Shown piece after piece: positions 9,767 to 45,361 of a stretch of DNA of 64,000 nt. This DNA comes from Oxalicibacterium flavum. Lineage in GTDB: Bacteria > Pseudomonadota > Gammaproteobacteria > Burkholderiales > Burkholderiaceae_D. Under the pieces are notes generated by a model. The model was not told where the DNA came from and made no database searches. It saw only the letters and a list, made by a program, of their open reading frames with translations. The position numbers and the translations under genes are program-made. Location: positions 186,001 through 250,000 of the forward strand of contig NZ_BMCG01000005.1 in assembly GCF_014635065.1 (NCBI RefSeq), in the 5' to 3' direction. How positions within the stretch are numbered: the first letter of the stretch is position 1; every line of letters begins with the position of its first letter.

Positions 9767-10129
9767 ATGCAACGCATCATGCTCAGGGCCAAGATCCACC
9801 GTGCGACGGTGACGCAGGCCGATCTGCACTATGAAGGTTCGTGCGGGATCGACGAGGATCTGCTGGACGCGGCTGATATCAAGGTCGGCGAGCGTATCGA
9901 GTTGTATAACGTGAACAATGGCGAACGTTTCGCCACCTATGCGATCAAGGGCGTCAAGGGAAGCGGCGAGATTTCGCTCAATGGTGCGGCTGCGCGCCGT
10001 GCCCATCTCGGCGATCTGCTCATCATCTGTACCTATGGACCGATGAGCGACGAAGAGATCGAGACCTATGTGCCCAAGATCGTTTTTGTCGATGAACACA
10101 ACAGGATCACGGGACTGAAGCAGCAATAA
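9767..10129 (+). CDS. panD: Aspartate 1-decarboxylase (pyruvoyl enzyme)
   Basis: PanD converts aspartate to beta-alanine for pantothenate and CoA synthesis. The 120-aa proenzyme cleaves itself between Gly24 and Ser25 in HYEGSCGID to create the pyruvoyl group. Other conserved segments are [30 protein letters not shown] and [11 protein letters not shown]. Length and sequence are typical. CoA is heavily used by the oxalyl-CoA/formyl-CoA genes elsewhere in the window, but panD appears to be an independent unit with its own terminator. Confidence 0.96.
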
Positions 10130-11848: not shown

Positions 11849-11862
11849 GAAGGAGACCCCAA

Positions 11863-14318: not shown

Positions 14319-14358
14319 GTATACGTATCAGCAAAAATTTCGTTCACTGGAGGTAATG

Positions 14359-16131
14359 ATGGCAAAGATGACCGCAGCCCAGGCAGCAGTCTGGGTTATG
14401 CAGAAGGAAGGTATCGATCAGGCGTTCGGCGTGCCGGGCGCAGCGATCAACCCGTTTTACTCGGCACTGCAGAAAAACGGCACGATCGCTCACGTGCTGG
14501 CGCGCCACGTTGAAGGCGCATCGCACATGGCAGAAGGCTACACCCGTGCAAAAGCCGGCAACATCGGCGTCTGCCTGGGCACCTCGGGCCCTGCCGGCAC
14601 CGACATGATCACCGGCCTGTATTCCGCATCGGCCGACTCGATCCCAATTCTGTGCGTCACCGGTCAGGCACCGCGCGCCCGTATTCACAAGGAAGACTTC
14701 CAGGCTGTCGATATCGAGAAAATCTCGTCGCCGGTCACCAAATGGTCGGTCATGGTACGTGAGCCGGCCCTGGTGCCGATGGTATTCCAGCAGGCTTTCC
14801 ACATCATGCGTTCGGGCCGTCCGGGTCCGGTGCTGATCGACCTGCCGTTCGACGTGCAAGTCGCCGAGATCGAATTCGATCCTGACCTGTACGAACCGCT
14901 GCCGGTCTACAAGCCTGCGGCAACCCGCAAGCAGATCGAACGCGCGCTGACGATGCTGAACGAAGCCGAGCGTCCGCTGCTGATCTCGGGCGGCGGCGTC
15001 ATCAACGCCGACGCTACCGCGCTGATGCGCGAGTTCGCCGAACTGGTCAACGTGCCGGTCGTGCCGACCCTGATGGGCTGGGGCACCGTGCCTGACGATC
15101 ACCCGCTGATGGCCGGCATGGTCGGTCTGCAGACCTCGCACCGCTACGGCAACGCGACGATGCTGGCTTCGGACTTCTGCTTCGGTATCGGCAACCGCTG
15201 GGCCAACCGCTTCACCGGCTCGATCGACGTCTTCACCCAAGGCCGCAAGTTCGTCCACATCGACATCGAACCGACCCAGATCGGCCGCGTGTTCGGTCCG
15301 GATCTCGGCATCGTGTCGGATGCAAAAGCGGCACTGACCCTGCTGGTCGAAGTCGCCAAGGAATGGAAAGCCGCCGGCAAGTTCAAGAACCGCGACGCGT
15401 GGATCGCCGAGTGCCAGAAGCGCAAGCGCACGATGCTGCGCAAGACCGACTTCGACAACACGCCGATCAAGCCGCAACGCGTGTACCAGGAAATGAACAA
15501 GGTGTTCGGCAAGGACACCCGTTACGTCTCGAACATCGGTCTGTCGCAGATCGCTGCCGGCCAGTTCCTGCACGTGTATAACGAGCGTAACTGGATCAAC
15601 TGCGGTCAGGCAGGCCCGCTGGGCTGGACCGTTCCGGCCGCCCTGGGTGTGCGCGTTGCCGATCCGGCCAGCGAAGTCGTTGCCATCACCGGCGACTACG
15701 ACTTCCAGTTCCTGATCGAAGAACTGGCCGTTGGCGCGCAGTTCAACCTGCCGTACATCCACGTGCTGGTGAACAACTCGTACCTCGGTCTGATCCGTCA
15801 GGCGCAACGCATGTTCACGATGGACTACTGCGTCTCGCTGGCATTCGACAACATCAACTCGACCGAAAACGCATCGTACGGTGTGGATCACGTCAAGGTC
15901 ACCGAAGGCCTCGGCTGCAAGGCGATCCGCGTGTTCGAACCGAGCGAAATCGAACCTGCGCTGCGCAAAGCACAGGAGTGGATCAAGGAATTCAAGGTGC
16001 CGGTCGTGGTCGAGGTCATCCTCGAACGCGTGACCAACATCGCCATGGGCACCGAGATCAACGCGATCAACGAATTTGAAGAAATCATCGACGTGGTGGA
16101 AGGCGAACCCGCGCTGGCCGGAAAGGAGTAA
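14359..16131 (+). CDS. gcl: Glyoxylate carboligase (tartronate-semialdehyde synthase)
   Basis: Gcl joins two glyoxylates to tartronate semialdehyde plus CO2, using TPP and FAD. Two adjacent ATGs (14356 and 14359) are possible; the second is better spaced from GGAGG at 14349. From it the protein is 590 aa and the position of the usual catalytic Glu is Val51 ([13 protein letters not shown]), the hallmark of true Gcl. TPP binding shows as [12 protein letters not shown] followed by [10 protein letters not shown]. The gene uses a strongly biased codon set, suggesting high expression. hyi follows after 4 bp. Confidence 0.96.
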
Positions 16132-16135
16132 TACG

Positions 16136-16915
16136 ATGACGAAACTTGCTGCCAACCTGACGATGCTGTTCAACGAGGTTCCATTCCTGGAACGTTTTGA
16201 ACAAGCTGCCAAGAACGGTTTCAAGGGTGTCGAATTTCTGTTCCCCTACGATTTTCCTGCAGAGGAAGTCGCGGCGAAACTGAAAGCCAACAACCTCGAA
16301 ATGGTGCTGCACAACCTGCCGGCTGGTAACTGGGCCGGTGGCGAACGCGGTATCGCCTGCCACCCGGATCGCGTGGCCGAGTTCAAGGAAGGCGTCGACA
16401 AGGCGCTGGAATACGCAAAGGTGCTCGGTACCAAGCACATCAACTGCCTGGCAGGCATCGTGCCGGCAGGCGTGTCGAAAGAGCAGGCAGAAGCGACGTT
16501 CGTATCGAACCTGAAGTACGCAGCGGACAAGCTGAAGGCCGCGGGTATCCCGCTGCTGATCGAAGCGATCAACACCTTCGACATCCCCGGCTTCTTCCTG
16601 ACCGGCACCAAGCAGACCCTGGACATCATCGCCAAGGTCGGCTCGGACAACCTGTTCTTCCAGTACGACATCTATCACATGCAACGCATGGAAGGCGAAC
16701 TGGCGAACACGGTGAAAGCCAACCTGGCCGTCATCCCGCACATTCAGCTGGCTGACAATCCGGGTCGCTTCGAACCAGGCACGGGTGAGATCAACTACAC
16801 CTTCCTGTTCAAGTATCTGGACGAAATCGGCTACAAGGGCTGGATCGGTTGTGAATACAAACCGAAAGCCGGCACGGTCGAAGGTCTGGGCTGGCGCGCT
16901 GCGCACGGCGTGTAA
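16136..16915 (+). CDS. hyi: Hydroxypyruvate isomerase
   Basis: Hyi interconverts hydroxypyruvate and tartronate semialdehyde. The start at 16136 follows a GGAG in the end of gcl, giving 259 aa (family about 258). It is a xylose-isomerase-like TIM barrel. Metal ligands lie in LLIEAINTFDIPGF, in FQYDIYHMQRMEGE and in the final GCEYKPKAGT segment. It is the second gene of the gcl operon, and its sequence is close to that of proteins found beside gcl in other Proteobacteria. Confidence 0.94.
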   Translation: MTKLAANLTMLFNEVPFLERFEQAAKNGFKGVEFLFPYDFPAEEVAAKLKANNLEMVLHNLPAGNWAGGERGIACHPDRVAEFKEGVDKALEYAKVLGTKHINCLAGIVPAGVSKEQAEATFVSNLKYAADKLKAAGIPLLIEAINTFDIPGFFLTGTKQTLDIIAKVGSDNLFFQYDIYHMQRMEGELANTVKANLAVIPHIQLADNPGRFEPGTGEINYTFLFKYLDEIGYKGWIGCEYKPKAGTVEGLGWRAAHGV

Positions 16916-17048: not shown

Positions 17049-17936
17049 ATGGCAAAAGTCGGATTCATCGGTTTGGGCATCATGGGCGCGCCGATGGCGC
17101 TCAACCTGCAAAAGGGTGGCCACGAGCTGTACGTTCACGATCAGAAAGCGCCTGCGCAGGAACTGATCGACGGCGGCGCGAAGGTCTGCGCTTCGGGCGC
17201 CGAAGTTGCCAAGAACGCTGACGTCATCATCACCATGGTGCCGGACACCCCGCACGTGGAAGCCGTCCTGTTCGGCGAAAACGGTGTCGCCGCCGGTCTG
17301 TCGAAAGGCAAGATCGTGGTGGACATGAGCTCGATCTCGCCGATCGCGACCAAGGGTTTCGCCAAGAAGGTCAACGACCTCGGCGCCGAATACCTGGACG
17401 CACCGGTGTCGGGTGGTGAAGTCGGCGCGAAAGCCGCTTCGCTGACGATCATGGTCGGCGGTTCGGAAGCTGCCTTCGGCACCGTCAAGCCACTGTTCGA
17501 ACTGATGGGCAAGAACATCACGCTGGTCGGCGGTAACGGCGATGGCCAGACCACCAAGGTCGCCAACCAGATCATCGTTGCACTGAACATCCAGGCAGTC
17601 GCCGAAGCGCTGCTGTTCGCATCGAAAGCCGGCGCCAACCCGGCCAAGGTGCGTGAAGCGCTGATGGGCGGTTTCGCCAACTCGCGCATTCTGGAAGTGC
17701 ACGGCGAGCGCATGGTCAAGCGTACGTTCAACCCGGGCTTCCGCATCGAACTGCACCAGAAGGATCTGAACCTGGCACTGCAGGGCGCCAAGTCGATGGG
17801 CATCTCGCTGCCGAACACCGCAGCCGCCCAGGAACTGATGAATGCCTGCGCCGCCAACGGCCTGTCCGGCATGGATCACTCGGCACTGTGCCGTGCGATC
17901 GAGATCATGTCGAACCACGAAATCGCCAAGGCGTAA
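17049..17936 (+). CDS. glxR: 2-hydroxy-3-oxopropionate (tartronate semialdehyde) reductase
   Basis: GlxR reduces tartronate semialdehyde to D-glycerate. The 295-aa product is a beta-hydroxyacid dehydrogenase with N-terminal dinucleotide motif VGFIGLGIMGAPMA, substrate motif DAPVSGGEVGAK and catalytic lysine in GDGQTTKVANQI. AGGAG lies at 17037-17041. It follows hyi, and its place in a gcl-hyi cluster decides between GlxR and other family members such as 3-hydroxyisobutyrate dehydrogenase. Confidence 0.94.
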   Translation: MAKVGFIGLGIMGAPMALNLQKGGHELYVHDQKAPAQELIDGGAKVCASGAEVAKNADVIITMVPDTPHVEAVLFGENGVAAGLSKGKIVVDMSSISPIATKGFAKKVNDLGAEYLDAPVSGGEVGAKAASLTIMVGGSEAAFGTVKPLFELMGKNITLVGGNGDGQTTKVANQIIVALNIQAVAEALLFASKAGANPAKVREALMGGFANSRILEVHGERMVKRTFNPGFRIELHQKDLNLALQGAKSMGISLPNTAAAQELMNACAANGLSGMDHSALCRAIEIMSNHEIAKA

Positions 17937-18054: not shown

Positions 18055-19320
18055 ATGTCGATTGATCCACGCCAGTTTTTGAACGACCTGTATGACACCG
18101 CAGTCGAGGCCGTGAGCGCACGTCAGTGCATGCCCGCCTACCTGCCCAAGCAATCCGCCAAGGGACGCACGCTGGTGATCGGCGCCGGCAAGGGCGCCGC
18201 GGCGATGGCAAAGGTCGTCGAAGACACGTGGCCTGGCAAGGTCGAAGGCCTGATCGTCACGCGCTACGAGCACGGCGCCGACTGCAAGCAGATCGAGATC
18301 GTCGAAGCCGCGCATCCGGTGCCGGACGAAGCCGGCCGCGCCGCTGCCGGCCGCATGCTGGAACTGGTCAAGGGCCTGACCGAGGACGACCTCGTGCTGT
18401 GCCTGATCACCGGCGGCGGTTCCGCGCTGCTGAGCCTGCCGGGCGAAGGCATCACACTGGAGCAGAAACAGGCATTGAACAAGGCGTTGCTCAAGAGCGG
18501 CGCCACGATTTCCGAAATGAACTGCGTGCGCAAGCACCTGTCGGCCATCAAGGGCGGACGTCTGGCGCTCGCATGCGCGCCGGCCAAGGTCATCACGCTG
18601 CTGATTTCCGACGTGCCGGGCGACGATCCGGGCGTGATCGCTTCCGGCCCGACGTTGCCGGACCCGACCACCTGCGAACAGTCGCTGGCGATCCTGAAGA
18701 AGTACAACATCGAGATTCCCGAGAACGTGCGCCAGCATCTCGAATCCGGCGCCGGCGAAACGCCGAAACCCGGTGACGCGCGTTTTGCACGCAACGAGCA
18801 TCACGTGATGGCGACCGCCCAGCATGCGCTGGAAGCGGCAGCCGAGAAGGCACGCGCCGCCGGCATCACGCCTTACATCCTGTCCAACGACCTCGAAGGC
18901 GAATCGCGCGATGTCGGCATGGTGCACGCGGCGCTCGCCAAGCAGGTCGCCAAGTACGGCCAGCCGTTTGCCAAGCCATGCGTGATCCTGTCCGGCGGCG
19001 AAACCACGGTCACGGTGCGCGGCAAGGGCCGCGGCGGCCGCAATGCGGAATTCCTGCTGAGTCTGGCAGTGTCGCTGCAGGGCACGCCCGGCATTTATGC
19101 ACTGGCCTGCGACACGGACGGCATCGACGGCTCGGAAGATAACGCCGGCGCGATCTATACGCCGGACTCCTGGTCGCGTGCGGAAGAGAAGGGCCTGAGT
19201 GCCAAGGCCATGCTCGAGAACAACGATGGCTACGGTTTCTTCAGCGGCCTCGGCGACCTGATCGTCAGCGGCCCGACGCGCACCAACGTCAACGACTTCC
19301 GCGCCATCCTGATTTTGTAA
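18055..19320 (+). CDS. ttuD: Glycerate 2-kinase (MOFRL family, TtuD/GckA-like)
   Basis: This enzyme phosphorylates D-glycerate to 2-phosphoglycerate. It has often been annotated as hydroxypyruvate reductase because of the early name TtuD. The 421-aa product has the N-terminal GckA domain (VIGAGKGAAAMAKV, CLITGGGSALLSLP, SDVPGDDPGVIASGPT) and the C-terminal MOFRL domain (ILSGGETTVTVRGKGRGGRN, ACDTDGIDGSEDNAGA). It follows glxR and precedes pyk, the known gcl-hyi-glxR-ttuD-pyk order of pseudomonads. Together these convert glyoxylate to pyruvate. Confidence 0.92.
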   Translation: MSIDPRQFLNDLYDTAVEAVSARQCMPAYLPKQSAKGRTLVIGAGKGAAAMAKVVEDTWPGKVEGLIVTRYEHGADCKQIEIVEAAHPVPDEAGRAAAGRMLELVKGLTEDDLVLCLITGGGSALLSLPGEGITLEQKQALNKALLKSGATISEMNCVRKHLSAIKGGRLALACAPAKVITLLISDVPGDDPGVIASGPTLPDPTTCEQSLAILKKYNIEIPENVRQHLESGAGETPKPGDARFARNEHHVMATAQHALEAAAEKARAAGITPYILSNDLEGESRDVGMVHAALAKQVAKYGQPFAKPCVILSGGETTVTVRGKGRGGRNAEFLLSLAVSLQGTPGIYALACDTDGIDGSEDNAGAIYTPDSWSRAEEKGLSAKAMLENNDGYGFFSGLGDLIVSGPTRTNVNDFRAILIL

Positions 19321-29565: not shown

Positions 29566-29599
29566 AAACGCCTCGGCACTTCAGCCGGTGGCGTTTTTT
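29566..29599 (+). terminator. Terminator after the TonB-dependent receptor
   Basis: AAACGCC pairs with GGCGTTT around a 17-base loop and runs into TTTTTT. It overlaps the last codons of the convergent LysR gene, showing how tightly the two ends are packed. Confidence 0.7.
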
Positions 29600-30564
29600 C
29601 TTTTCCGCTTCACCGGCGCATCGCTCAACTGCCTTCCGGGCTTGGGGTTGTAGCGCACGATCTTCTCGATCAGGGCCGGGCCTTCTTCCAGCAGGAAATC
29701 CTTGAACGCCTGGGCCACTGGAGGCAGGCGCTTGTGCTTGCGGTGCACCACGTACCAGTTGAGCATGACGGGAAAGCCTTCGACGTCGAGCACGGCGAGG
29801 CTGCCGGCCTGCAGTTCCAGGCTGATGGTATGCGCCGACAGGAAGGCGAGACCCATGCCGGCGATGACGGCCTGCTTGATGGTTTCCATACTGCGGATTT
29901 CCATCGCGATGTTGAGGTCGGTCAGGTTGCCGCCGAAGCCGTCTTCCATCGAGTTCCAGGTATCCGAGCCTTTCTCGCGCACCACGAACGGTTCGCGCAT
30001 CAGCGTCTGGATCGGGATGTTCTTCTTCGATACCAGATGATGATCTGGCGGTGCGACGATCACGTAAGGGTGCGGGGCGAAGGCCTGGACTTCGGTGTCC
30101 ATGTCGAGCGGCGGGCGCACCATGATGGCGATGTCGGTCAGGTTGTTGGCGAGCTGGTTGAGCAGGCCATCGCGGTTGTGGACCGACAGGTTGAGCGTGA
30201 CGCCCTGGTGCCGCCGCGCGAACTCGACCAATAGGCGCGGAAAAAAGTAATCGCCCGCGCTGATCACGGCGACGTTGAGCTTGCCGCCGGTGATGCCCTT
30301 GAAGTGGGTCATGGCATCTTCAGCTTCCTGAAACTGCTGGATGATGGTGCGGCAGTAGTCGAGCAGTTCGGCACCGCCCGGCGTCAGGTAGATCTTCTTG
30401 CCCAGTTGCTCGAACAGCGGCAGGCCCGCATGGTCTTCGAGTTTCTTGATCTGGGTCGAGACGGCGGGTTGCGTCAGGTGCAGTTCCTCGGCCGCGCGCG
30501 AGAAGCTCAGGTGGCGAGCGACGGTCTCGAAAACCTTGAGTTGGCGCAGGGTGGCATTCTTCAT
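29581..30564 (-). CDS. LysR-type regulator, CbbR-like
   Basis: The 327-aa product has the N-terminal helix-turn-helix (residues 5-63, LSFSRAAEELHLTQPAVSTQIKKLE) and a sensor domain similar to CbbR-type regulators (KLNVAVISAGDYFFPRLL, EGFPVMLNWYVVHRKHKRLPP). The C-terminus is Lys/Arg-rich. It is transcribed divergently from the 111-aa gene at 30695, so it is the natural candidate regulator of that gene and perhaps of the paralog at 48273, which shares its upstream motif. The effector is unknown. Confidence 0.9.
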   Translation of the reverse strand: MKNATLRQLKVFETVARHLSFSRAAEELHLTQPAVSTQIKKLEDHAGLPLFEQLGKKIYLTPGGAELLDYCRTIIQQFQEAEDAMTHFKGITGGKLNVAVISAGDYFFPRLLVEFARRHQGVTLNLSVHNRDGLLNQLANNLTDIAIMVRPPLDMDTEVQAFAPHPYVIVAPPDHHLVSKKNIPIQTLMREPFVVREKGSDTWNSMEDGFGGNLTDLNIAMEIRSMETIKQAVIAGMGLAFLSAHTISLELQAGSLAVLDVEGFPVMLNWYVVHRKHKRLPPVAQAFKDFLLEEGPALIEKIVRYNPKPGRQLSDAPVKRKRKNATG

Positions 30565-31447: not shown

Positions 31448-32614
31448 ATGAATATCCACGAGTATCAAGGAAAAGAAATACTGCGTAAGTACGGTGTCAC
31501 GACACCCAAAGGCTTTCCCTGTTTTTCGGTAGATGAGGCTGTACAGGCTGCTGAAAAACTCGGCGGCAAGGTCTGGGTCGTCAAGGCGCAGATCCACGCA
31601 GGTGGACGCGGCAAGGGAGGCGGCGTCAAGGTTGCCAAGTCGCTCGACGAAGTGCGCCAGTACGCAAACGACATTCTCGGCATGACGCTGGTGACCCATC
31701 AGACCGGTCCTGAAGGCCGTCTGGTCAAGCGCCTGCTGATCGAAGAAGGCGCGGACATCAAGAAGGAACTGTACGTCGGTATGGTTGTCGATCGCGGTAG
31801 CCAGCGCGTTGCGCTGATGGCATCGAGCGAAGGCGGCATGGATATCGAACACGTTGCAGAACATACTCCTGAGAAAATCCACACGGTATTCATTGATCCG
31901 ACCAAAGGTCTGCTCGACAGCGAAGCCGACGACATCGCGCGCAAGATCGGCGTGCCGGAAGGTTCGATCGGCCAGGCGCGCGCATTCATGCAAGGCCTCT
32001 ACAAGGCATTCGACGAATCCGACGCCTCGCTGGCAGAGATCAATCCCCTGATCGTGACCGGCGACGACCGCATCGTTGCACTCGACGCGAAATTCAACTT
32101 CGATTCCAACGCACTGTATCGCCACCCTGAAATCCAGGAAATGCGCGATCTGGACGAAGAAGATGCCGCAGAAATCGAAGCATCGAAATTCGACCTGACC
32201 TACATCTCGCTCGATGGCAACATCGGCTGCCTCGTCAACGGCGCCGGTCTGGCAATGGCGACGATGGACGTCATCAAGCTGTACGGCGGTGAACCGGCCA
32301 ACTTCCTCGACGTCGGCGGCGGTGCCACGACCGAGAAAGTCACCGAAGCATTCAAGATCATGTTGAAGAACCCGGACATCAAGGCGATCCTGGTCAACAT
32401 CTTCGGCGGCATCATGCGTTGCGACACCATCGCGAACGGCGTGATCGCGGCAGCAAAACAGGTTGATCTGAAGGTTCCTCTGGTGGTTCGCATGGCGGGC
32501 ACCAACGAAGAACTGGGCAAGCAGATTCTGGCTGAATCCGGTCTCCCGATCATCACGGCTAACAACATGGCTGAAGCGGCTGAGAAAGTCGTCAACGCAG
32601 CACAGGGGAAATAA
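31448..32614 (+). CDS. sucC: Succinyl-CoA synthetase beta subunit
   Basis: SucCD interconverts succinate and succinyl-CoA with nucleotide triphosphate. The 388-aa beta subunit begins [17 protein letters not shown]. It has the ATP-grasp fold ([19 protein letters not shown]) and the C-terminal CoA-ligase part ([26 protein letters not shown]). sucD follows after 3 bp. Placement apart from sucAB and behind an FNR-type box near frc/oxc suggests a role in providing succinyl-CoA as CoA donor for oxalate; that is inference. Confidence 0.96.
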
Positions 32615-32617
32615 TCA

Positions 32618-33493
32618 ATGTCTATCCTGATCAACAAAGACACCAAGGTCATCACCCAAGGTATCACCGGCAAGACCGGTCAGTTCCACACCAAGATGTG
32701 CCTCGAGTACGCGAACGGCAAGAACTGCTTCGTCGCCGGCGTGAACCCGAAGAAGCCGGGCGAGTCGTTCGAAGGCGTGCCAATCTACGCATCGGTTGCC
32801 GAAGCGAAGGCAGAGACGGGCGCGACCGTTTCCGTGATCTACGTTCCGCCTCCATTCGCTGCCGCTGCGATCGACGAAGCGGTGGACGCCGGTCTCGATC
32901 TGGTGATCTGCATCACCGAAGGCATTCCGGTGCGCGACATGATTCGCACCAAGCAACGTCTGGAAAACTCCAAGACCCTGCTGCTGGGCCCGAACTGCCC
33001 AGGTCTGATCACGCCTGACGAAATCAAGATCGGCATCATGCCGGGCCACATCCACAAGAAGGGCCGCATCGGCGTCGTGTCGCGTTCGGGCACGTTGACC
33101 TATGAAGCCGCTGGCCAGCTGGCCGAGTTCGGTCTGGGTCAATCGACCGTGGTCGGTATCGGTGGTGATCCGGTCTCGGGTCTGAAGCACATCGACGTGC
33201 TGAAAATGTTCAACGACGATCCTGACACCGATGCAGTCATCATGGTCGGTGAAATCGGCGGTGAAGCAGAAGAAACCTGCGCACGCTGGATCAAGGACAA
33301 CATGAAGAAACCGGTGGTCGGCTTCATCGCCGGCGTTACCGCGCCTCCGGGCAAGCGCATGGGCCACGCTGGCGCCATCATCTCGGGCGGCAAGGGTACG
33401 GCGCAAGAGAAGCTGGCTGTCATGGAAGCATGCGGCATCAAAGTGACGAAAAACCCGGCTGAAATGGGTCGTCTGCTGAAGTCGGTTCTGTAA
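32618..33493 (+). CDS. sucD: Succinyl-CoA synthetase alpha subunit
   Basis: The 291-aa subunit carries the CoA-binding Rossmann domain ([28 protein letters not shown]) and the phosphohistidine loop [14 protein letters not shown] near residue 248. It also has the conserved [10 protein letters not shown]. It is translationally close to sucC. The gene shows the same strong codon bias as gcl, oxc and frc, consistent with high expression. Confidence 0.96.
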
Positions 33494-33685: not shown

Positions 33686-34453
33686 ATGTCACAACGTTGG
33701 GTTCGTTTCAGTCACGCAGGCAATGCACAGTTCGGTACGCTTGAAGGCGACAACATTCAGGTCTATACCGGCGACATGTTTTCCAACCCCGTCAAGACCG
33801 ACACCGTTGTCAACGTCAACGACGTCAAACTGCTGATGCCGTGTCAGCCGACCAAGGTCATCGCGATGTGGAACAACTTCCATGCGCTGGCCGCAAAACT
33901 CAACCTCGCAGATCCGGCAGAACCGCTGTATCTGATCAAGGCCCCGAATTCCTATCTGAACCCCGGTGAAACGATCGAGAAGCCGCCTACCGACGACAAG
34001 ATCGTCTTCGAAGGCGAACTCGGCATCGTCATCGGCAAGAAAGCCAAGAACGTCTCCGAAGCCGACGCGCTCGACTACGTGTTCGGCTATACCGCCGCCA
34101 ACGACGTGACGGTCGCCAACATCCTCAATCGCGACGAATCGTTCGCGCAATGGGTGCGTGCAAAAGGCTTCGATACGTTCTGCCCGTTCGGTCCCGCCAT
34201 CGCGACCGATCTGGATCCGACCACGCTGGTCGTCAAAACCATTCTCAACGGTGATGTCCGTCAGGATTACCCCATCAGCGACATGCGCTTCTCGACCCAG
34301 CAACTGGTCAGCATGATTTCGCAGGAACTGACGCTGTTCCCTGGTGACATCATCCTCTGCGGTACCTCCGTCGGTGTCGGCTCCATGAAGCCGAACAGCG
34401 TCGTCGAGGTCGAGATTGCCGGCATCGGCAAGCTCACCAACGATTTCAAGTAA
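33686..34453 (+). CDS. Fumarylacetoacetate hydrolase family protein
   Basis: The 255-aa product has the FAH domain with metal-binding acidic residues in KIVFEGELGIVIGK and a later Asp in GYTAANDVTVANI. The catalytic segment APNSYLNPGETI and the end GTSVGVGSMKPNSVVEVEI are also present. Members cleave or decarboxylate beta-keto acids; FAHD1-like ones act on oxaloacetate or acylpyruvates. It is 17 bp from the ketopantoate-reductase-like gene, forming a pair between sucCD and the Tct transporter. The substrate is unknown; a C2-C4 dicarboxylate is plausible. Confidence 0.85.
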   Translation: MSQRWVRFSHAGNAQFGTLEGDNIQVYTGDMFSNPVKTDTVVNVNDVKLLMPCQPTKVIAMWNNFHALAAKLNLADPAEPLYLIKAPNSYLNPGETIEKPPTDDKIVFEGELGIVIGKKAKNVSEADALDYVFGYTAANDVTVANILNRDESFAQWVRAKGFDTFCPFGPAIATDLDPTTLVVKTILNGDVRQDYPISDMRFSTQQLVSMISQELTLFPGDIILCGTSVGVGSMKPNSVVEVEIAGIGKLTNDFK

Positions 34454-34470: not shown

Positions 34471-35481
34471 ATGAAAATTGCAGTTATCGGAGCAGGCGCC
34501 ATCGGTGGTTACGTTGGCGTGAAACTGGCCCTCGCGGGTGAAGACGTTACCTTCATCGTGCGCGGCGCCAACCTCGAAGCCATACGCAAGAACGGCGCCA
34601 AGCTGATCATGCACGACGGTACCGAGCACGTTGCTTCCAACGTCAAGGCCACCAACAACTACGACGAAGCCGGTCATCAGGATATCGTCGTGCTGGCCAT
34701 GAAGGCGCACCAGCTCGAAGCCATCGCCGACGATCTGCCGAAGCTGATCGGTCCGGACACCGTGATCGTGACGATGCAGAACGGCATTCCGTTCTGGTAC
34801 TTCCACAACCACGGCGGCAAGCTGGCCGGCACCTGCGTCAAGAGCGTCGATCCGACCGGTAACATCACGGCCAAGATCCCTGCCGATCGCGTTCTCGGTT
34901 GCGTCGTCTATCCGGCATCGGAACTGATCGCCCCGGGCGTCATCAAGCACATCGAAGGCGACCGTTTCCCCATCGGCGAACTCGACGGTTCGATCAGCGA
35001 ACGCGCGACCCGCGTATCGGAATGCTTCACCAATGCCGGCTTCAAGGCGCCGGTGCTGGACAACATCCGCGCCGAAATGTGGCTCAAGCTGTGGGGCAAC
35101 CTGACGTTCAATCCGATCAGCGCGCTGTCGCACTCGACGCTGCAGGACATCTGCCAATACCCGCTGTCGCGCGAACTGGCGGCTGCCATGATGACCGAAG
35201 CACAGACCGTCGCCAACAAGCTGGGCATCGAATTCCGCGTACCGCTCGAGAAGCGTATCGCCGGTGCTGAAAAAGTAGGCAAGCACAAGACCTCGATGCT
35301 GCAGGACGTCGAAGCAGGTCGTGATCCCGAGATCGATGCGCTGGTGGGTTCGGTTGCAGAGCTTGGTCGCCTGACCGACACGCCGACGCCGCATATCGAT
35401 ACCGTCTTCGCACTGGTCAAGCTGCTGGCGAAAACCATGGGTGAAGAATCCGGACTCGTGAAGCTGCAGAAAGTCGCCTGA
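34471..35481 (+). CDS. Ketopantoate-reductase-family protein, candidate oxalyl-CoA reductase (PanE2-like)
   Basis: The 336-aa product has the NADPH motif KIAVIGAGAIGGYVGVKLA and the family catalytic region AEMWLKLWGNLTFNPISAL with its lysine. By family it is a 2-dehydropantoate 2-reductase. In Methylobacterium extorquens a PanE-type protein (PanE2) reduces oxalyl-CoA to glyoxylate. Here the gene lies among sucCD, tctCBA, oxc and frc and the genome region also has a full glyoxylate pathway, so oxalyl-CoA reduction is the best-supported inference. True PanE would more often sit with panB/panC. Confidence 0.8.
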   Translation: MKIAVIGAGAIGGYVGVKLALAGEDVTFIVRGANLEAIRKNGAKLIMHDGTEHVASNVKATNNYDEAGHQDIVVLAMKAHQLEAIADDLPKLIGPDTVIVTMQNGIPFWYFHNHGGKLAGTCVKSVDPTGNITAKIPADRVLGCVVYPASELIAPGVIKHIEGDRFPIGELDGSISERATRVSECFTNAGFKAPVLDNIRAEMWLKLWGNLTFNPISALSHSTLQDICQYPLSRELAAAMMTEAQTVANKLGIEFRVPLEKRIAGAEKVGKHKTSMLQDVEAGRDPEIDALVGSVAELGRLTDTPTPHIDTVFALVKLLAKTMGEESGLVKLQKVA

Positions 35482-36004: not shown

Positions 36005-36122
36005 TCGTGCTACACGAATTGTTTCAACCAGCATCGGAGCCGCACGATGCGGAGGCTCAAAAGGCACTCTGAAAAGTGGCAGCAGTACCTGTAACAAAAA
36101 TTATTATTCCAAGGAGACAGTA

Positions 36123-37145
36123 ATGATCAAGAAATTGATTTCCACACGCGGTATGGCCAAGGCAACTGCCGGCGCGATTGCCGCACTCGCACTGACTACC
36201 ACTTCAGCATTTGCAGCCTGGGAGCCGACCAAGCCGGTCGAATTCGTCGTGCCTGCAGGTACCGGCGGCGGTGCCGATCAAATGGCACGTTTCATCCAGG
36301 GCGTCATCATCAAGCACAAGCTGATGAAAGAGCCGCTCATCATCGTCAACAAATCCGGCGGTGCGGGTGCAGAAGGCTTCCTCGGCATCAAGAAGGACAA
36401 GGGCGATCCGCACAAGATCATCATTACGCTCTCCAACCTGTTCACCACGCCAATGGCAACCGGTGTGCCGTTCAACTGGCGCGACATGACGCCAGTGGCC
36501 ATGCTGGCGCTTGACCAGTTCGTTCTGTGGACCAACGCCGAACAGAACTACAAATCGGCGAAAGACTACATGGATGCCGTGAAGGCAGCCGGCCCGAACA
36601 AGTTCAAGATGGGCGGCACCGGTTCCAAGCAGGAAGACCAGATCATCACGGTCGGCCTGGAAAAGGCAACCGGCACCAAGTTCATCTACGTGCCGTTCAA
36701 AGGCGGTGGTGAAGTGGCTGTGCAGCTGGTCGGCGGCCACGTCCAATCGACGGTGAACAACCCGATCGAAGCCGTTTCCCAATGGCGTGCAGGCAAGCTG
36801 ACGGCGCAGTGCGTGTTCGATCACGAGCGCATGCCGTACAAGGCCAAGGTCACCGATACCCAATCCTGGAACGACATCCCGACCTGCCAGGAAGCCGGTA
36901 TTCCTACCGACTACACCATGCTGCGCGGCATCTTCATGCCGGCTGGTGTGACGCCTGATCAACTGGCGTTCTATGTCGATCTCTTCACCAAGCTGCGCGA
37001 AACGCCTGACTGGAAAGAGTACATGGAAAAAGGTGCCTTCAACCAGACCTTCAAGACTGGCGCAGACTTCAAGACCTGGCTGGAAAGCGCAGAGAAGCAG
37101 CACGAAACGCTGATGCGTGAAGCCGGCTTCCTGGCCAAGAAGTAA
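36123..37145 (+). CDS. tctC: Tripartite tricarboxylate transporter substrate-binding protein (TctC/Bug family)
   Basis: TctC-type proteins bind small carboxylates in the periplasm and deliver them to TctAB. The start at 36123 has AAGGAGAC upstream and gives 340 aa with a clear signal peptide (cleavage near TTTSAFAAWEP). Typical segments are VEFVVPAGTGGGADQMARF, NKSGGAGAEGFLGIKK and YVPFKGGGEVAVQLVGGHVQ. The location between oxalate-linked genes suggests oxalate or another dicarboxylate as ligand. It is the first gene of tctCBA. Confidence 0.92.
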   Translation: MIKKLISTRGMAKATAGAIAALALTTTSAFAAWEPTKPVEFVVPAGTGGGADQMARFIQGVIIKHKLMKEPLIIVNKSGGAGAEGFLGIKKDKGDPHKIIITLSNLFTTPMATGVPFNWRDMTPVAMLALDQFVLWTNAEQNYKSAKDYMDAVKAAGPNKFKMGGTGSKQEDQIITVGLEKATGTKFIYVPFKGGGEVAVQLVGGHVQSTVNNPIEAVSQWRAGKLTAQCVFDHERMPYKAKVTDTQSWNDIPTCQEAGIPTDYTMLRGIFMPAGVTPDQLAFYVDLFTKLRETPDWKEYMEKGAFNQTFKTGADFKTWLESAEKQHETLMREAGFLAKK

Positions 37146-37256: not shown

Positions 37257-37778
37257 ATGGATCAGAATATGGAATCCAGTGGTGGCGTTCGCACAGGCGT
37301 AGCCACCTATATCGTGGAGGCGGTAGTCGCAGGCATCCTGCTCTTGCTCGGACTCATCGTAGCGATCACCAGCTGGGAGCTTGGCGCCGGCTGGACCTCG
37401 GATGGCCCTGGCTCTGGCTACTTCCCCTTTTACATCGGCCTTGTGATCTGCATCTCGGGTGCAGGGACGCTTTATCAGGCGCTGTTCGGCAAGGAAAAGA
37501 ACACCGACATCTTTGTCGATAGCGAGCAACTGAAGCGCATCCTGCAAGTGTTGATACCGGCAATCATCTATGTAGGGGGAATCGAGGTTTTCGGTATCTA
37601 CATTGCCTCGGCCGTCTATATCACCCTGTTCATGATCTTCCTCGGCAAGTTCTCGCCGATCAAGGCAGTCATTGCCGGGCTGGCAGTCAACACCGTCTTT
37701 TTCATGATGTTCGAGGTGTGGTTCAAGGTCCCCCTCTACAAAGGCGCGATCAATCTCTTGGGCTTCACCGGTTATTAA
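37257..37778 (+). CDS. tctB: Tripartite tricarboxylate transporter small membrane subunit TctB
   Basis: The 173-aa product has four predicted membrane helices (about residues 19-40, 54-75, 95-115 and 122-165). It also has the family features GPGSGYFPFYIGLVI and GKFSPIKAVI. It partners TctA. CAGGAG lies 9 bases before the ATG. tctA follows after 55 bp. It belongs to the DUF1468 family. Confidence 0.88.
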   Translation: MDQNMESSGGVRTGVATYIVEAVVAGILLLLGLIVAITSWELGAGWTSDGPGSGYFPFYIGLVICISGAGTLYQALFGKEKNTDIFVDSEQLKRILQVLIPAIIYVGGIEVFGIYIASAVYITLFMIFLGKFSPIKAVIAGLAVNTVFFMMFEVWFKVPLYKGAINLLGFTGY

Positions 37779-37833: not shown

Positions 37834-39363
37834 ATGGATGAAATTAGCGCATTGTTTCACGGGTTTGCCGTGATCTTCACGCCTGCGAACTTCTTGCTGA
37901 TGGTCATCGGCATCGTTCTGGGCGTGTTGATCGGCGTGCTGCCTGGCCTGGGAGGGGCGAACGGTGTGGCAATTCTGTTGCCGCTGACGTTCACGATGTC
38001 TCCGACCTCGGCAATCATCATGCTCTCCTGTATCTACTGGGGCGCATTGTTCGGCGGTGCAATCACTTCCGTGCTGTTCAATATTCCGGGTGAACCGTGG
38101 TCCGTGGCCACGACATTCGACGGGTATCCGATGGCACAGAAGGGGCATGCGGGTGAGGCGTTGACGGGTGCATTCACGTCTTCGTTCATCGGCGCATTCC
38201 TGGCCGTGGTGATGATTACCTTCATGGCGCCGCTGGTGGCGAAGTTTGCCCTGCGTTTCGGTCCGCCGGAATTCTTCTCGGTGTATCTGCTGACCTTCTG
38301 CAGCTTCGTCGGCATGGGCAAGGGTTCGCCGTTCAAGGTGCTGGCTTCCATGGCACTCGGCTTCGCGCTGGCTGCCGTCGGCATGGATACGGTGACGGGC
38401 CAACTGCGTCTGACCTTCGGTTTCGAAGAGCTGATGCGCGGCTTCGACTTCCTGATCGCTGTTATCGGTCTGTTCGGTATCGGCGAAATCCTGCTGTCGA
38501 TGGAAGAAGGCCTGGCGTTCTCCGGCAAATCGGCCAAGATCGATCCGAAGGTCGTGTTCCAGACCTGGAAGAAACTGCCGAAGTACTGGGTGACCTCGCT
38601 GCGCAGTGCCCTGGTCGGTATGTGGATGGGTGTCACGCCTGGTGGCGCAACGCCGGCATCGTTCATGGCATATGGTCTGGCCAAGAAAATGTCCCGCAAT
38701 GGCAACAACTACGGCAAGGGTGAACTGGAAGGTATCGTCGCTCCGGAAACCGCTGCCCACGCTGCCGGTACCGCTGCACTGCTGCCGATGCTGGCTCTGG
38801 GTATTCCGGGTTCGCCGACCGCTGCAGTTCTGCTGGGCGGCCTGCTGATCTGGGGTCTGCAGCCAGGTCCGCTGCTGTTCGTCGAACAGAAGGACTTCGT
38901 CTGGGGTCTGATCGCCAGTATGTACCTGGGTAACCTGGTCGGCCTGCTGGTGGTGCTGACGACGGTGCCGCTGTTCGCTTCGATCCTGCGCATCCCGTTC
39001 TCGATCATCGCTCCGGTCATCATCGTGATTTGCGCCATCGGCGCCTACACGGTGGGCAATGCGACGTTCGATATCTGGCTGATGATCGTGTTCGGTGTGG
39101 TCGGTTATCTGTTCAAGAAGCTCGACTACCCGCTGGCGCCGATGGTGCTGGCACTGGTGCTGGGCGACAAGGCAGAGGACTCGTTCCGTCAGGCGATGCT
39201 GGTTTCGCAAGGCGACGTGATGGTCATGTTCTCCAACCCGCTGGTTGGTACCATCACCACTCTGGCTCTGGTCATGCTGCTCTGGCCGCTGATCTCGCGC
39301 CTGATCGCAATGGTTCGTCCGCCGAAGAAGGACGAATTCGCCGAACATCGCGAAGCAGAATAA
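37834..39363 (+). CDS. tctA: Tripartite tricarboxylate transporter large membrane subunit TctA
   Basis: The 509-aa product has about 11-12 membrane helices and carries the TctA signature repeats: GVLPGLGGANGVAILLPLTF near residue 36 and the paired PGGATPASFMAYG region near 267. It forms the secondary-transport channel driven by ion gradients. AAGGAG precedes the ATG. It ends the operon before a strong terminator. Confidence 0.94.
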   Translation: MDEISALFHGFAVIFTPANFLLMVIGIVLGVLIGVLPGLGGANGVAILLPLTFTMSPTSAIIMLSCIYWGALFGGAITSVLFNIPGEPWSVATTFDGYPMAQKGHAGEALTGAFTSSFIGAFLAVVMITFMAPLVAKFALRFGPPEFFSVYLLTFCSFVGMGKGSPFKVLASMALGFALAAVGMDTVTGQLRLTFGFEELMRGFDFLIAVIGLFGIGEILLSMEEGLAFSGKSAKIDPKVVFQTWKKLPKYWVTSLRSALVGMWMGVTPGGATPASFMAYGLAKKMSRNGNNYGKGELEGIVAPETAAHAAGTAALLPMLALGIPGSPTAAVLLGGLLIWGLQPGPLLFVEQKDFVWGLIASMYLGNLVGLLVVLTTVPLFASILRIPFSIIAPVIIVICAIGAYTVGNATFDIWLMIVFGVVGYLFKKLDYPLAPMVLALVLGDKAEDSFRQAMLVSQGDVMVMFSNPLVGTITTLALVMLLWPLISRLIAMVRPPKKDEFAEHREAE

Positions 39364-39575: not shown

Positions 39576-40184
39576 TCAGATTTTTCCTTGGTGTTTGAGT
39601 CTGCTGAGCGTTTCCGGGGATAAATTGAGGTAGGAAGCCAACTCTTTCTTGGGTATGCGGTCGAACAATTCCGGATGCTTGCGCACGAAGCGTTGCACGC
39701 GTCCCGGCGCGTCCAGCAAGTGAAGGGTGATGGTGTGCGCCATGATGTCGCTCATCAATTGCATGACGTCAAGTTCGAAGGCCTGCTTGATGTGTTCGTG
39801 GCGATCAAGGAAGGCGATCCATTGCAGCAATGGCAATTTCACGACGCGTGCCTTGGTGACGCAGATGATGCTGTACGGTGTGGGTGTCTTGAGGCGCCAT
39901 GCGGCGTAGCTGGTTTCCATGCTGCGCTCGTCGGCAAAGCGTAGAATCATCTCCTTGGCTTGCTGATTCGTCACTACGCGCTTGAGGATGCCGTCGAGAA
40001 TGAAGTACTGTTCCATCTCGTGTACGCCCTGGTGCAGCAGGAAATCGCCCTTGGGGCAATCGACCACCAGCAAATGCGGTTCCAGCTCTGCCCATTCCTG
40101 CTCCGTCACGTCCTTCAGGACATGATTCTGCTTGAGTTGAACGCGTATGACATTACGGTCAGGATGGTTATCGACAGTGGGCAT
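39576..40184 (-). CDS. Crp/Fnr-family transcription regulator divergent from oxc
   Basis: The 202-aa product has a cyclic-nucleotide-binding-like domain (residues 20-140, PKGDFLLHQGVHEMEQYFILDG) and a C-terminal helix-turn-helix (RIPKKELASYLNLSPETLSRLK). The recognition helix ETLSR (191-195) has the E-x-x-S-R residues Fnr uses to read TTGA half-sites, fitting the TTGACC boxes here. It lacks the N-terminal cysteine cluster of Fnr and ends soon after the helix. It is divergent from oxc with a box between them, so it likely controls oxc and itself. Its signal is unknown. Confidence 0.88.
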   Translation of the reverse strand: MPTVDNHPDRNVIRVQLKQNHVLKDVTEQEWAELEPHLLVVDCPKGDFLLHQGVHEMEQYFILDGILKRVVTNQQAKEMILRFADERSMETSYAAWRLKTPTPYSIICVTKARVVKLPLLQWIAFLDRHEHIKQAFELDVMQLMSDIMAHTITLHLLDAPGRVQRFVRKHPELFDRIPKKELASYLNLSPETLSRLKHQGKI

Positions 40185-40455: not shown

Positions 40456-42165
40456 ATGACTAACGCGACTGCAGTAGTACCCGAAGGCGTAGAGCTGACC
40501 GACGGCTTCCATCTCCTGATGGATGCACTGGAAATGAACGGCATCACCAACATCTACGGTCTGCTCGGTATCCCAGTGACCGAAATCGGCCGTATGTGGC
40601 AAGCGCGCGGTAACAAGTTCTACAGCTTCCGTAACGAGCAGAATGCTGGCTACGCGGCATCGGTGGCCGGTTATCTGACCAAAAAACCTGGCGTGTGCGT
40701 GACGGTTTCCGCACCTGGCTTCCTGAACGGTCTGACCGCACTGGCCAACGCCACCACCAACTGCTTCCCGATGATCCTGATCTCGGGTTCGTCCGAGCGT
40801 GAAATCGTCGACCTGCAACAAGGCGACTACGAAGAAATGGACCAGCTGAACATCGCTCGTCCGCACTGCAAGGCTTCGTTCCGTATCAACCGTCCTGAAG
40901 ACATCGGCGTTGCCGTGGTCCGCGCCGTGCGCACCGCGCTGTCGGGCCGTCCGGGCGGTGTCTATCTGGACATCCCTGCACGTCTGTTCAGCACCGTCAT
41001 GAGTGCCGAAGAAGGCAAGAAATCGCTGTGGGTCCCGGTTGATCCGGCTCCTGCGCAGATCCCTGCACCGTCGGCCGTGCAACGTGCCGCCGAACTGATC
41101 AAGAACGCCAAGAAGCCGCTGATCCTGCTGGGCAAGGGCGCTGCCTACGCACAGTGCGACGCCGACATCAAGGCACTGGTCGAAGAAACCGGCATTCCGT
41201 TCACCCCGATGTCGATGGCAAAAGGCCTGGTTTCGGATACGCACCCGCAATGCGGCGCTGCTGCCCGTTCGATGGTTCTGCAAGAATCCGACGTGGTCGT
41301 CCTGATCGGCGCACGCCTGAACTGGCTGCTGTCGCACGGCAAGGGCAAGACCTGGGGCAATCCGAAGAAATTCGTTCAAATCGACATCCAGGCCAACGAA
41401 ATCGACAGCAACGTGCAGATCCACGCACCGCTGGTCGGCGACGTCCAGTCCTGCGTCAACGCACTGCGCGACGCACTGAAAGGCATGAACAAGCCGACCG
41501 AGTGGATGAACGCCGTGGCAGAACGCGCTGCCGGCAGCCGCGCCAAGCTGGCTACCAAGCTGTCGACCGCCACCCCGGTCATGAACTACCACAACTCGCT
41601 GGGCGCAATCCGTGACGTTCTGAAAAACTACCCGGACATCACCCTGGTCAACGAAGGCGCCAACGCCCTCGACAATGCACGTATGGTCATCGACCAGTAC
41701 CTGCCGCGCAAGCGTGTGGATACCGGCACCTGGGGCGTCATGGGCATCGGTATGGGTTCGGCTGCAGCCGCTGCTGTTGAAACCGGCAAGCCTGTCGTCG
41801 CGATCTGCGGTGATTCGGCATTCGGCTTCAGCGCAATGGAATACGAAACCCTGACCCGTTACAACCTGCCTGTGACCGTCATCGTCATGAACAACGGCGG
41901 TATCTACCGCGGTGACGAAGCCAGCCCGGAACACCAGTTCTCGTGCATGCTGTTCAACCCGAACACCCGCTATGACCAACTCAGTATCGCTCTGGGCGGC
42001 GAAGGCGTTCGCGTCAACACGCCGGAAGAGCTGGCCAAGGCACTGGAAGACTCGATCAAGTCGGGCAAAACGACCATCATCGACGCGATCATCGATCCGG
42101 CCGCTGGTGTCGAATCGGGCCGTATCGGCAACCTGAACATCGTTTCGACGATCGGCAAGAAATAA
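40456..42165 (+). CDS. oxc: Oxalyl-CoA decarboxylase
   Basis: Oxc is a TPP enzyme that decarboxylates oxalyl-CoA to formyl-CoA, the energy-yielding step of oxalate catabolism. From the ATG at 40456 the product is 569 aa, almost the length of the Oxalobacter formigenes enzyme. It has the catalytic Glu in [33 protein letters not shown], and the TPP-binding [15 protein letters not shown] followed by MNNGGIYRG. Codons are strongly biased. It sits behind an FNR-type box and before frc. Confidence 0.96.
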
Positions 42166-42467: not shown

Positions 42468-43721
42468 ATGAGCAAGCCATTGGAAGGGATCAAGATCATC
42501 GACTTCACGCACGTGCAAGCAGGTCCTGCATGTACGCAGATGCTGGCATGGTTCGGTGCGGATGTTATCAAGGTGGAGCGCCCAGGTTCGGGTGACGTAA
42601 CGCGTTCGCAACTGCGCGACATTCCTGGCAAGGACGCGCTGTACTTCACGATGCTGAACAGCAACAAGCGTTCGCTGACGCTCGATACCAAGACCCCGCA
42701 AGGCAAGGAAGTCCTGGAAAAGCTGATCAAGGAATCCGACGTCATGGTCGAGAACTTCGGTCCTGGCGCACTGGATCGCATGGGCTTCTCGTGGGCACGC
42801 ATTCAGGAACTGAACCCAGGCATGATCCTGGCGTCGGTCAAGGGCTTCTCCGAAGGTCACCACTACGAAGACCTGAAAGTCTATGAAAACGTCGCGCAAT
42901 GCGCAGGCGGTGCTGCTTCAACCACCGGTTTCTGGGATGGTCCGCCGACCGTTTCGGCTGCTGCACTGGGTGACTCGAACACCGGTATGCACCTCGCCAT
43001 CGGTATCCTGACCGCCCTGATGGGTCGTCAGAAAACCGGCAAGGGTCAGAAAGTTGCCGTTTCGATGCAAGACGCCGTTCTCAACCTGTGCCGCGTCAAG
43101 CTGCGCGACCAACAGCGTCTGGACAAGATCGGTTACCTGGAAGAGTATCCGCAGTACCCGCACGGCAAGTTTACCGACGTCGTCCCGCGTGGCGGTAACG
43201 CCGGCGGTGGCGGTCAGCCAGGCTGGGTTCTGAAATGTAAAGGTTGGGAAACCGATCCTAACGCTTACATCTACTTCACGGTTCAAGGCCACGCATGGGC
43301 TCCGATCTGTAAAGCACTGGGCAAGGAAGAGTGGATCGACGATCCGGCTTACAACACCCCGATCGCTCGTCAAGACAAGATCTTTGACATCTTTGCCTTC
43401 ATCGAAGACTTCATCAAGGACAAGACCAAGTTCGAAGCAGTTGATATCTTCCGCAAGTTCGATATCCCTTGCGCTCCGGTCCTGTCGATGAAAGAAATCG
43501 CTGCAGACGAATCGCTGCGCAAGAGCGGTTCGATCGTCGAAGTCGAGCACAAGGATCGTGGCGAGAAGTACCTGACCGTCGGTTCGCCGATCAAGTTCTC
43601 CGATCTGAAGCCTGAAATCACCGCTTCGCCGCTGCTCGGCGAACACACGGATGAAGTGCTGGCTCAACTGGGTTACACCAAAGAGCAGATCGCCGAATTC
43701 CACGCCAACAAGGCTGTTTAA
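42468..43721 (+). CDS. frc: Formyl-CoA:oxalate CoA-transferase
   Basis: Frc moves CoA from formyl-CoA to oxalate, giving oxalyl-CoA and formate. The 417-aa class III CoA-transferase keeps the catalytic Asp169 ([10 protein letters not shown]), the conserved Gln17 ([12 protein letters not shown]) and the mobile glycine loop GGGGQPGW (246-253). Residue 48 is Gln, as in E. coli YfdW, where O. formigenes has Trp. AAGGAAG lies before the ATG. It forms a cycle with the preceding oxc. Confidence 0.95.
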
Positions 43722-44090: not shown

Positions 44091-44110
44091 GTACAGACAA
44101 AGGAGTAGTG

Positions 44111-45361
44111 ATGAGTAAGGCATTGAGCGGTTATCGCATTCTTGATTTCACGCACGTACAGTCCGGCCCTGCATGCACGCAGTTGCTGGCCTGGTTTGGC
44201 GCAGACGTGATCAAGGTTGAGCGCGCAGGTGAAGGCGACGTCACGCGCAGCCAACTGCGCGACATCCCCGATGCCGACAGCCTGTACTTCACGATGCTGA
44301 ACGGTAACAAGCGTTCGATCACGCTGGACACCAAGAACCCGAAGGGCAAGGCTGTCCTTGAGAAGCTGATCAAGGAGTGTGACGTTCTGGTCGAGAACTT
44401 CGCACCTGGCGCGCTGGACCGCATGGGCTTCAGCTGGGAGCGCATCCAGGAACTGAACCCGAAGATGATCATGGCATCGGTCAAGGGTTTCGGTCCCGGT
44501 CCGTACGAAAACTGCAAGGTCTATGAAAACGTTGCGCAATGCGCAGGCGGTGCTGCATCCACCACCGGTTTCGACGACGGCCCACCACTGGTGACCGGCG
44601 CGCAGATCGGCGACACTGGTACCGGCATGCACCTCGCACTGGGCATCATGGCTGCACTGATTCAGCGTCAGACCACCGGCCGTGGCCAGAAAGTGCTGGC
44701 TTCCATGCAGGACGCCGTGCTGAACCTGTGCCGCGTCAAGCTGCGCGACCAGCAGCGCCTGGAACGCACCGGCGTGATGAAGGAATATCCGCAATATCCG
44801 GATACCCCGTTTGGCGAAGCCGTGCCGCGTGCCGGCAATGCATCGGGCGGTGGCCAGCCGGGCTCCGTGCTGAAGTGCAAGGGCTGGGAAACCGATCCGA
44901 ACGCCTATATCTACTTCATCGCGCAGGCGCCGGTCTGGGAGCAGATCTGCAAGGTGATCGGCAAGGAAGAATGGCTGACCGATCCGGAATACGCAACGCC
45001 GGCTACCCGTCTGCCGCACCTGAAGAACATCTTCGCGACGGTCGAGGAATGGACCAAGACCAAGACCAAGTTCGAGGCGATGGACATCCTCAACAAGTTC
45101 GACATCCCTTGCGGCCCGATCCTGTCGATGAAGGAAATCGCCGAAGAGCAGGCGCTGCGCGATACCGGCACCATCGTGGAAGTCGATCACCCGGTGCGCG
45201 GCAAGTACCTGACCGTCGGCAACCCGATCAAGCTGTCGGACAGCCCGACCGAAGTGACGCGCTCGCCGTTGCTCGGTGAGCATAATGAAGAAGTGCTGAC
45301 CCAGCTCGGTTACTCGGCCGAACTGATTGCGGAACTGCGCGCTGAACGTGTGATTTCGTAA
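44111..45361 (+). CDS. Formyl-CoA:oxalate CoA-transferase paralog
   Basis: The 416-aa product is closely similar to the upstream Frc along its whole length. It keeps Gln17 and the catalytic Asp (Asp168), and also has Gln48. It differs in the glycine loop (SGGGQPGS for GGGGQPGW) and in FDDGPPLV where the first has FWDGPPTV. These changes near the active site could alter CoA donor choice, for example succinyl-CoA or acetyl-CoA in place of formyl-CoA. AGGAG precedes the ATG at 44111. It has its own FNR-type promoter. Confidence 0.9.

Follow-up and report, generated by a model that had tools for sequence, protein, structure and literature searches.

Our analysis of a 64,000-nucleotide stretch of the Oxalicibacterium flavum genome (hereafter, the window) leads us to propose that the product of its PanE/ApbA-family gene is an oxalyl-CoA reductase (EC 1.2.1.17) akin to PanE2 and ApbA2, a predicted function to which we assign a probability of about 0.9 and which was also that of the original prediction for this gene. 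The clade to which the gene belongs tracks the oxalyl-CoA decarboxylase gene oxc, mostly has oxalate or glyoxylate genes for neighbours, falls together with genes from a Methylobacterium-like genus and adjoins Cupriavidus-type genes; published work in Methylobacterium and Cupriavidus has described an enzyme of this type acting on oxalyl-CoA. The fold, the conserved catalytic residues, the clade, the gene context and the distribution are the basis that this analysis provides; the reaction and the growth phenotype come from relatives in print and are carried over here, by analogy, to the predicted window enzyme.

PanE2 was reportedly described by Schneider in 2012 as the oxalyl-CoA reductase of Methylobacterium extorquens, and Quayle is said to have studied the reactions of oxalyl-CoA in Pseudomonas oxalaticus in 1963. 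The original prediction stated that M. extorquens PanE2 takes oxalyl-CoA to glyoxylate, and the available part of PMC8411744 bears this out, as PanE2 is characterised there and used for this conversion. The available sections of PMC7486775 place apbA2 of Cupriavidus necator near frc-oxc, give ApbA2 as 51% identical to PanE2, and report that deletion of apbA2 lengthened the doubling time on oxalate from 6.5 to 10 h, that a glycerate-pathway deletion, with a doubling time of 13 h on oxalate, was likened to the apbA2 deletion, and that a frc-oxc deletion abolished growth on oxalate. The excerpted PMC12927642 gives the assimilation set as Gcl, hydroxypyruvate reductase and serine-glyoxylate transaminase, and in its main text, as excerpted, oxalyl-CoA reductase is named once, by EC number, and panE never. 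The activity and two relatives, PanE2 and ApbA2, are thus already known, with the C. necator case covered in the available sections of PMC7486775; what we offer here is a corrected gene name and no new system. In a literature search we found no paper in which the term "2-dehydropantoate 2-reductase" occurs together with both oxalate and formyl-CoA transferase, and a search for oxalyl-CoA with ketopantoate reductase returned nothing related, as judged by title.

The gene is an uninterrupted reading frame of 336 codons for amino acids, from ATG to stop (Table 1), and it is, as had been claimed, a PanE-family gene that would usually be called ketopantoate reductase. Its product scored above the curated cut-offs of NF005089 (PRK06522.1-4; 479.3 bits, cut-off 223) and TIGR00745 (208 bits, cut-off 141), both of which carry the name 2-dehydropantoate 2-reductase, and above those of both PF02558 and PF08546, as expected of the two-domain PanE/ApbA fold. 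Because the NCBIfam models give the protein this name, automatic annotation can easily overlook the assimilatory side of oxalate metabolism; named plasmid-borne relatives are likewise labelled 2-dehydropantoate 2-reductase. The AlphaFold2 model of the window protein (mean pLDDT 89.4) had as its top solved-structure match 3ghy, a putative ketopantoate reductase from Ralstonia solanacearum (41% identity, TM 0.89-0.90).

We observed that residues R31, K78, N104, K206, N210, N214, S275 and E287, which we take to be the E. coli PanE positions for NADPH binding and catalysis, were invariant in all 112 clade rows and in all 14 comparison PanE rows of the alignment. These residues indicate an intact PanE active site and do not set its substrate: as the catalytic residues of clade and non-clade PanE proteins are identical, the substrate is not provable from sequence alone, and we dropped them as proof of substrate. 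Conservation of R31 across the clade rows only hints that NADPH is the cofactor. Among the positions conserved in at least 90% of the clade but in at most 25% of the proteins outside it were Y147, P148, K192, E202, F255, R256, V257, G265 and H272.

The surroundings of the gene agreed with the original prediction on several points (Table 1): oxalate genes lie alongside it, the window also contains the gcl pathway, and panD is found near 9.8 kb. The genome's one copy of panB is remote from the reductase gene, on another contig (C3:400209-400991). The earlier remark that no isocitrate lyase is seen in the window extends to the whole genome, rated 99.99% complete, where model TIGR01346 had no match. 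The single sucD match of the genome sits inside the oxalate cluster (sucCD, 31448-33493). A promoter and terminator scan, which gave 4 sites where 2.4 were expected and 8 where 6.9 were expected, was left unused.

Table 1. Genes of the window that bear on the predicted oxalyl-CoA reductase (positions are those of the window).
Feature	Position	Strand	Remarks
panD	9767-10129		TIGR00223
pntA + pntB, NAD(P) transhydrogenase	10247-13269	+	possible NADPH supply
gcl, glyoxylate carboligase	14356-16131	+	likely consumer of the glyoxylate
hyi, hydroxypyruvate isomerase	16127-16915	+	gcl pathway
glxR, tartronate semialdehyde reductase	17049-17936	+	gcl pathway
Glycerate 2-kinase-like gene	18055-19320	+	score under model cut-off
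LysR-family regulator	29581-30564	-	similar gene at many related loci
sucC, succinate-CoA ligase beta	31448-32614	+	in the oxalate cluster
sucD, succinate-CoA ligase alpha	32618-33493	+	TIGR01019; sole match to this model in the genome
FAH-family protein	33686-34453	+	ends 17 bases 5' of the reductase gene
PanE/ApbA-family reductase, predicted NADPH-dependent oxalyl-CoA reductase	34471-35481	+	336 aa; ATG-to-stop ORF
TctC-like binding protein	36120-37145	+	start provisional; ORF open from 35925
TctB	37257-37778	+	part of TctABC
TctA	37834-39363	+	part of TctABC
Crp-like regulator, cNMP-binding domain	39576-40184	-	beside oxc at many related loci too
oxc, oxalyl-CoA decarboxylase	40456-42165	+	TIGR03254, 884 bits
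frc1, formyl-CoA:oxalate CoA-transferase family	42468-43721	+	TIGR03253, 726 bits
frc2, second CoA-transferase of the frc1 family	44108-45361	+	TIGR03253, 726 bits

The distribution of the gene was assessed in one draw of 116 genomes from the GTDB family of the source (completeness at least 90), with the clade gene defined as a match of at least 620 bits on alignment A2, the next lower score being 526. An oxc above cut-off was present in 32 of these genomes and the clade gene in 36; 31 genomes had both, 5 the clade gene only, 1 oxc only and 79 neither, such that the clade gene was found in 31/32 genomes with oxc versus 5/84 without it. As a P value for this co-occurrence ignores relatedness, we instead tallied genera: 13 had both genes, 2 had just the clade gene, 1 had just oxc and 24 lacked the two. 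In g12, three genomes contained oxc and the clade gene and one (G060) neither, yet panB was present in it; within g21, one genome contained both and four neither, all four with panB. Where the clade gene occurred without oxc, three genomes (G044, G106, G120) carried, within ~10 kb, both frc and a gene for a second ThDP enzyme, a fourth (G092) had the second ThDP enzyme at a contig end together with OxlT-like genes, and the fifth (G022) had OxlT-like, sucCD and FAH genes. In the sole oxc genome lacking the clade gene (G043), the stretch that was read held an OxlT-like gene besides frc and oxc, but PanE was absent from it. We conclude that the clade follows oxalate use rather than pantothenate.

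A genome scan confirmed 231 relatives, the best 80 of which make up the named loci, and neighbourhood genes were counted at a minimum of 45% identity. These best 80 include loci from Oxalicibacterium, Herminiimonas, Oxalobacter, Noviherbaspirillum, Massilia, Polaromonas, Variovorax and Ramlibacter, and the nearest relative among the matches listed was from Oxalicibacterium faecigallinarum (97%). Among the best 80 of the 231, oxc or frc was found in 51 stretches and oxc, frc or oxlT in 58, a count that rose to 61 once gcl, hyi and glxR were included and to 65 if an aminotransferase, whose gene comes after the reductase gene in Oxalobacter, was also counted; the 15 without any of these genes had stretches 4.4 to 12.6 kb long, with the exception of L081, and for 19 of the 80 the stretch that was read lacked any independent oxalate or gcl-pathway gene. 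In the family draw, the clade gene occupied 39 loci in the 36 genomes, all of which were read, the window included. Here oxc or frc was present at 22/39 loci, 26/39 with oxlT, 28/39 with the gcl-pathway genes (gcl, hyi, glxR) and 37/39 if the aminotransferase was counted, while at 11/39 the sequence read was devoid of independent oxalate or gcl-pathway genes. Nine Oxalobacter-like loci had the aminotransferase alone, and their genomes have oxc elsewhere; the last two loci (L153 and L155), on 8.7- and 6.0-kb stretches, were without these genes.

The queries for the aminotransferase and, from L128 and L129, those for oxlT and the second ThDP enzyme were taken from the PanE loci themselves, which makes the counts that include the aminotransferase partly circular; we kept our confidence because the co-occurrence with oxc is independent of these queries. 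The Oxalobacter aminotransferase scored 222 bits against the 650 cut-off of the best glyoxylate-aminotransferase model (aspartate-glyoxylate aminotransferase BhcA), and although it is related to BhcA, a glyoxylate substrate for it would be a guess.

By comparison, oxc, frc, oxlT, gcl, hyi and glxR were found at 0/23 non-clade PanE-family loci, five of which lie beyond BLAST reach of the window PanE, and oxc, frc, oxlT and gcl-pathway genes at 0/15 low-scoring loci of a phylum draw, both sets being picked by hand from score lists and not drawn at random. On the strength of these hand-picked loci, we rejected a chance neighbourhood. Middling-score loci had oxlT in 5 of 8 cases, and 11 of 20 high-scoring phylum loci carried at least one of oxc, frc, oxlT and the gene for the second ThDP enzyme, with the remaining 9 carrying none. 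The order oxlT-FAH-panE was observed in all four genomes read from the Methylobacterium-like genus, so called as one member is 99% identical to a Methylobacterium bullatum gene; in 11 of 26 genomes of this genus, the TIGR00745 match was split, as it is for the clade. A Phyllobacterium locus had the order panE-FAH-bhcR, accompanied by sucCD, frc and a gene for a ThDP enzyme. BhcR is a glyoxylate sensor. Overall, the oxalate context of the clade gene recurs across several families and two classes. At loci from Skermanella and Azospirillum (L127, L128), a CBS-domain gene comes after the PanE gene, with NAD(P) transhydrogenase genes a short way beyond it.

To place the window protein among its relatives, we relied on a careful tree of 63 hand-chosen rows, preferred over a quick tree of 163 extracted PanE proteins (144 rows after removal of identical ones) that came with a long-branch warning. 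In the 63-row tree, the window gene fell in a core group of 15 (support 100/96) and in a 27-row group (support 100/99) that also holds four Methylobacterium-like genes, which stand in for PanE2, with PanE2 and ApbA2 left out of the tree. Cupriavidus-, Azospirillum- and Phyllobacterium-type genes adjoin this group and lie outside it. Fifteen of the 20 comparison PanE rows were on the far side of the tree, and the five in the near half were the long-branched L264 and L265 and second copies from the genus Oxalobacter (L181, L182, L183). These extra Oxalobacter copies are ~50% identical to the window gene and have no oxalate genes nearby.

Identity to the window protein was 81% for O. formigenes, 59-62% for the Methylobacterium-like proteins and 51% for the relative from Cupriavidus metallidurans. 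The Methylobacterium-like and Cupriavidus-type proteins are 47-50% identical to one another, in agreement with the printed 51% for PanE2 and ApbA2 in the available sections of PMC7486775. The window gene is like PanE2 in its family and in having its 59-62% identical counterpart within the oxlT-FAH-panE set of the four Methylobacterium-like genomes that represent PanE2; it is unlike PanE2 in belonging to another bacterial class and in being accompanied by sucCD, TctABC, oxc and two frc genes. It shares with ApbA2, the CoA-acylating glyoxylate dehydrogenase of C. necator, an origin in the Burkholderiales and a position near frc and oxc (for apbA2, as given in the excerpts of PMC7486775), but Cupriavidus-type genes stand outside the group that unites the window gene with the Methylobacterium-like genes.

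Since panB was present in 114/116 genomes of the family draw versus 36/116 for the clade gene, presence of the latter is not tied to the pantothenate pathway. A PanE match at E 1e-30 was missing, among the matches listed (at most 17 candidates scored per genome), from 46/116 genomes, and all 46 have panB, because both panB-less genomes (G035, G098) do have PanE matches. These counts suggest that the pantoate step is commonly performed by another enzyme in this GTDB family; ketol-acid reductoisomerase and PanG are known substitutes for PanE. As PanE-less genomes with panB are common, being a sole panE is no argument against an oxalate role. The original prediction had asked whether the genome holds another panE and had held that an only panE in a pantothenate prototroph would speak against the oxalate function. 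A second homologue does exist, at C3:597928-598783 (-) (L001, in genome G000), but it is broken across two reading frames, which may reflect a real mutation or an assembly error, and the window gene is the sole intact PanE homologue found in the genome. With the second copy frame-broken, the gene comes close to being the only panE, yet given the 46 genomes above this is not diagnostic.

The lack of another intact homologue, the absence of a second PanE match (E 1e-30) from 11/12 genomes of the same genus (G001 alone has one), the presence of panB in the genome and the NCBIfam name would all fit a housekeeping ketopantoate reductase of the genus that has an oxalate neighbourhood by accident. 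We consider this explanation highly improbable and rejected it on distribution: within g12 and g21 the gene goes with oxc while panB persists in genomes without both, panB is retained in every one of the 46 genomes without a PanE match, and the oxalate context is repeated in several families and two classes. The clade resembles ketopantoate reductase PanE (EC 1.1.1.169) in its fold and in its conserved Arg, Lys, Asn, Ser and Glu positions, but differs from it in a distribution that follows oxc and not panB. An unlikely but less improbable alternative, which overlaps with our preferred explanation, is a dual-function enzyme that would reduce oxalyl-CoA and, where no other PanE is present, ketopantoate as well; a fold and catalytic residues that are the same as in other PanE-family proteins and the status of only intact PanE in this genome are consistent with it, whereas the frequency of genomes with panB but no PanE match counts against it.

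An FAH gene was located no more than 400 bases from the reductase gene at 57/80 loci among the best 80 of the 231 relatives, and is also present at the Methylobacterium-like and Phyllobacterium loci. The closest solved relative of the window FAH protein by sequence is the HpaG isomerase/decarboxylase, and we know of no role for an FAH-family protein in oxalate metabolism; its position beside the reductase gene makes it a lead open to testing. A broader proposal, in which one PanE-fold enzyme of this genus would act in oxalate assimilation, would also carry out the pantoate step of CoA synthesis and would be paired with the FAH protein as an unrecognised part of alpha- and betaproteobacterial oxalate assimilation, seems to us doubtful. 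A second ThDP enzyme was encoded near PanE, mostly with frc, at six loci (L131, L132, L133, L134, L126, L129). This enzyme scored far under the cut-off of the OXC model (219 bits for that of Phyllobacterium, against a cut-off of 557), its nearest solved structure is a 2-hydroxyacyl-CoA lyase, and it is present in four genomes with no oxc above cut-off (G044, G106, G120, G092); it may be another oxalyl-CoA decarboxylase.

Under the oxalyl-CoA reductase function that we favour, the frc products would load CoA onto oxalate, Oxc would decarboxylate one share of the oxalyl-CoA for energy and reducing power, and the predicted reductase would use NADPH to turn another share into glyoxylate, which the products of gcl, glxR and the glycerate kinase gene would take on to glycerate phosphate. 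Oxalyl-CoA (CoA-S-CO-COO-) is a 2-oxo acid and as such should be open to PanE-type hydride transfer, which would give a hemithioacetal and then glyoxylate and CoA with no requirement for a catalytic cysteine. The probable donor is NADPH, as suggested by R31 and by the NAD(P) transhydrogenase genes that come after the reductase gene in Skermanella and Azospirillum. Because the reductive branch would yield no formyl-CoA, oxalate would require a different CoA donor; for this reason, and because the only sucD found lies here, we propose that succinyl-CoA, recharged by the adjacent SucCD, may be that donor.

The reaction could instead run in a direction other than the formation of glyoxylate from oxalate, given that the available sections of PMC7486775 handle the ApbA2 reaction as reversible and report that frc-oxc aids growth on glycolate once the glycerate pathway is gone. 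The same sections present such a route as secondary, and the presence of gcl in the window together with the lack of an isocitrate lyase match in the genome favours glyoxylate formation from oxalate, so we give this possibility very little weight. We regard as equally remote from the evidence, or slightly more so, the idea that the enzyme reduces another 2-oxo acid imported by TctABC. The TctABC genes do lie 3' of the reductase gene here, 22 of the best 80 of 231 relatives have a tctA-like gene in their stretches, and in four alphaproteobacterial-looking clade relatives from other classes (L240, L245, L246, L249) the sequence read contains a Tct-type transporter gene but lacks oxalate genes; however, the other 58 of these 80 have no tctA in their stretches, some of which are short, and 58 of the 80 have oxc, frc or oxlT.

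If the predicted reductase acts on oxalyl-CoA as we propose, this bacterium can build cell material from oxalate, and a profile specific to the clade could flag bacteria that make biomass from oxalate, Oxalobacter formigenes included. On the chromosome of O. formigenes HC-1, the reductase gene with the aminotransferase gene behind it occurs at two sites (L029, L030), with equal identities to the window gene.
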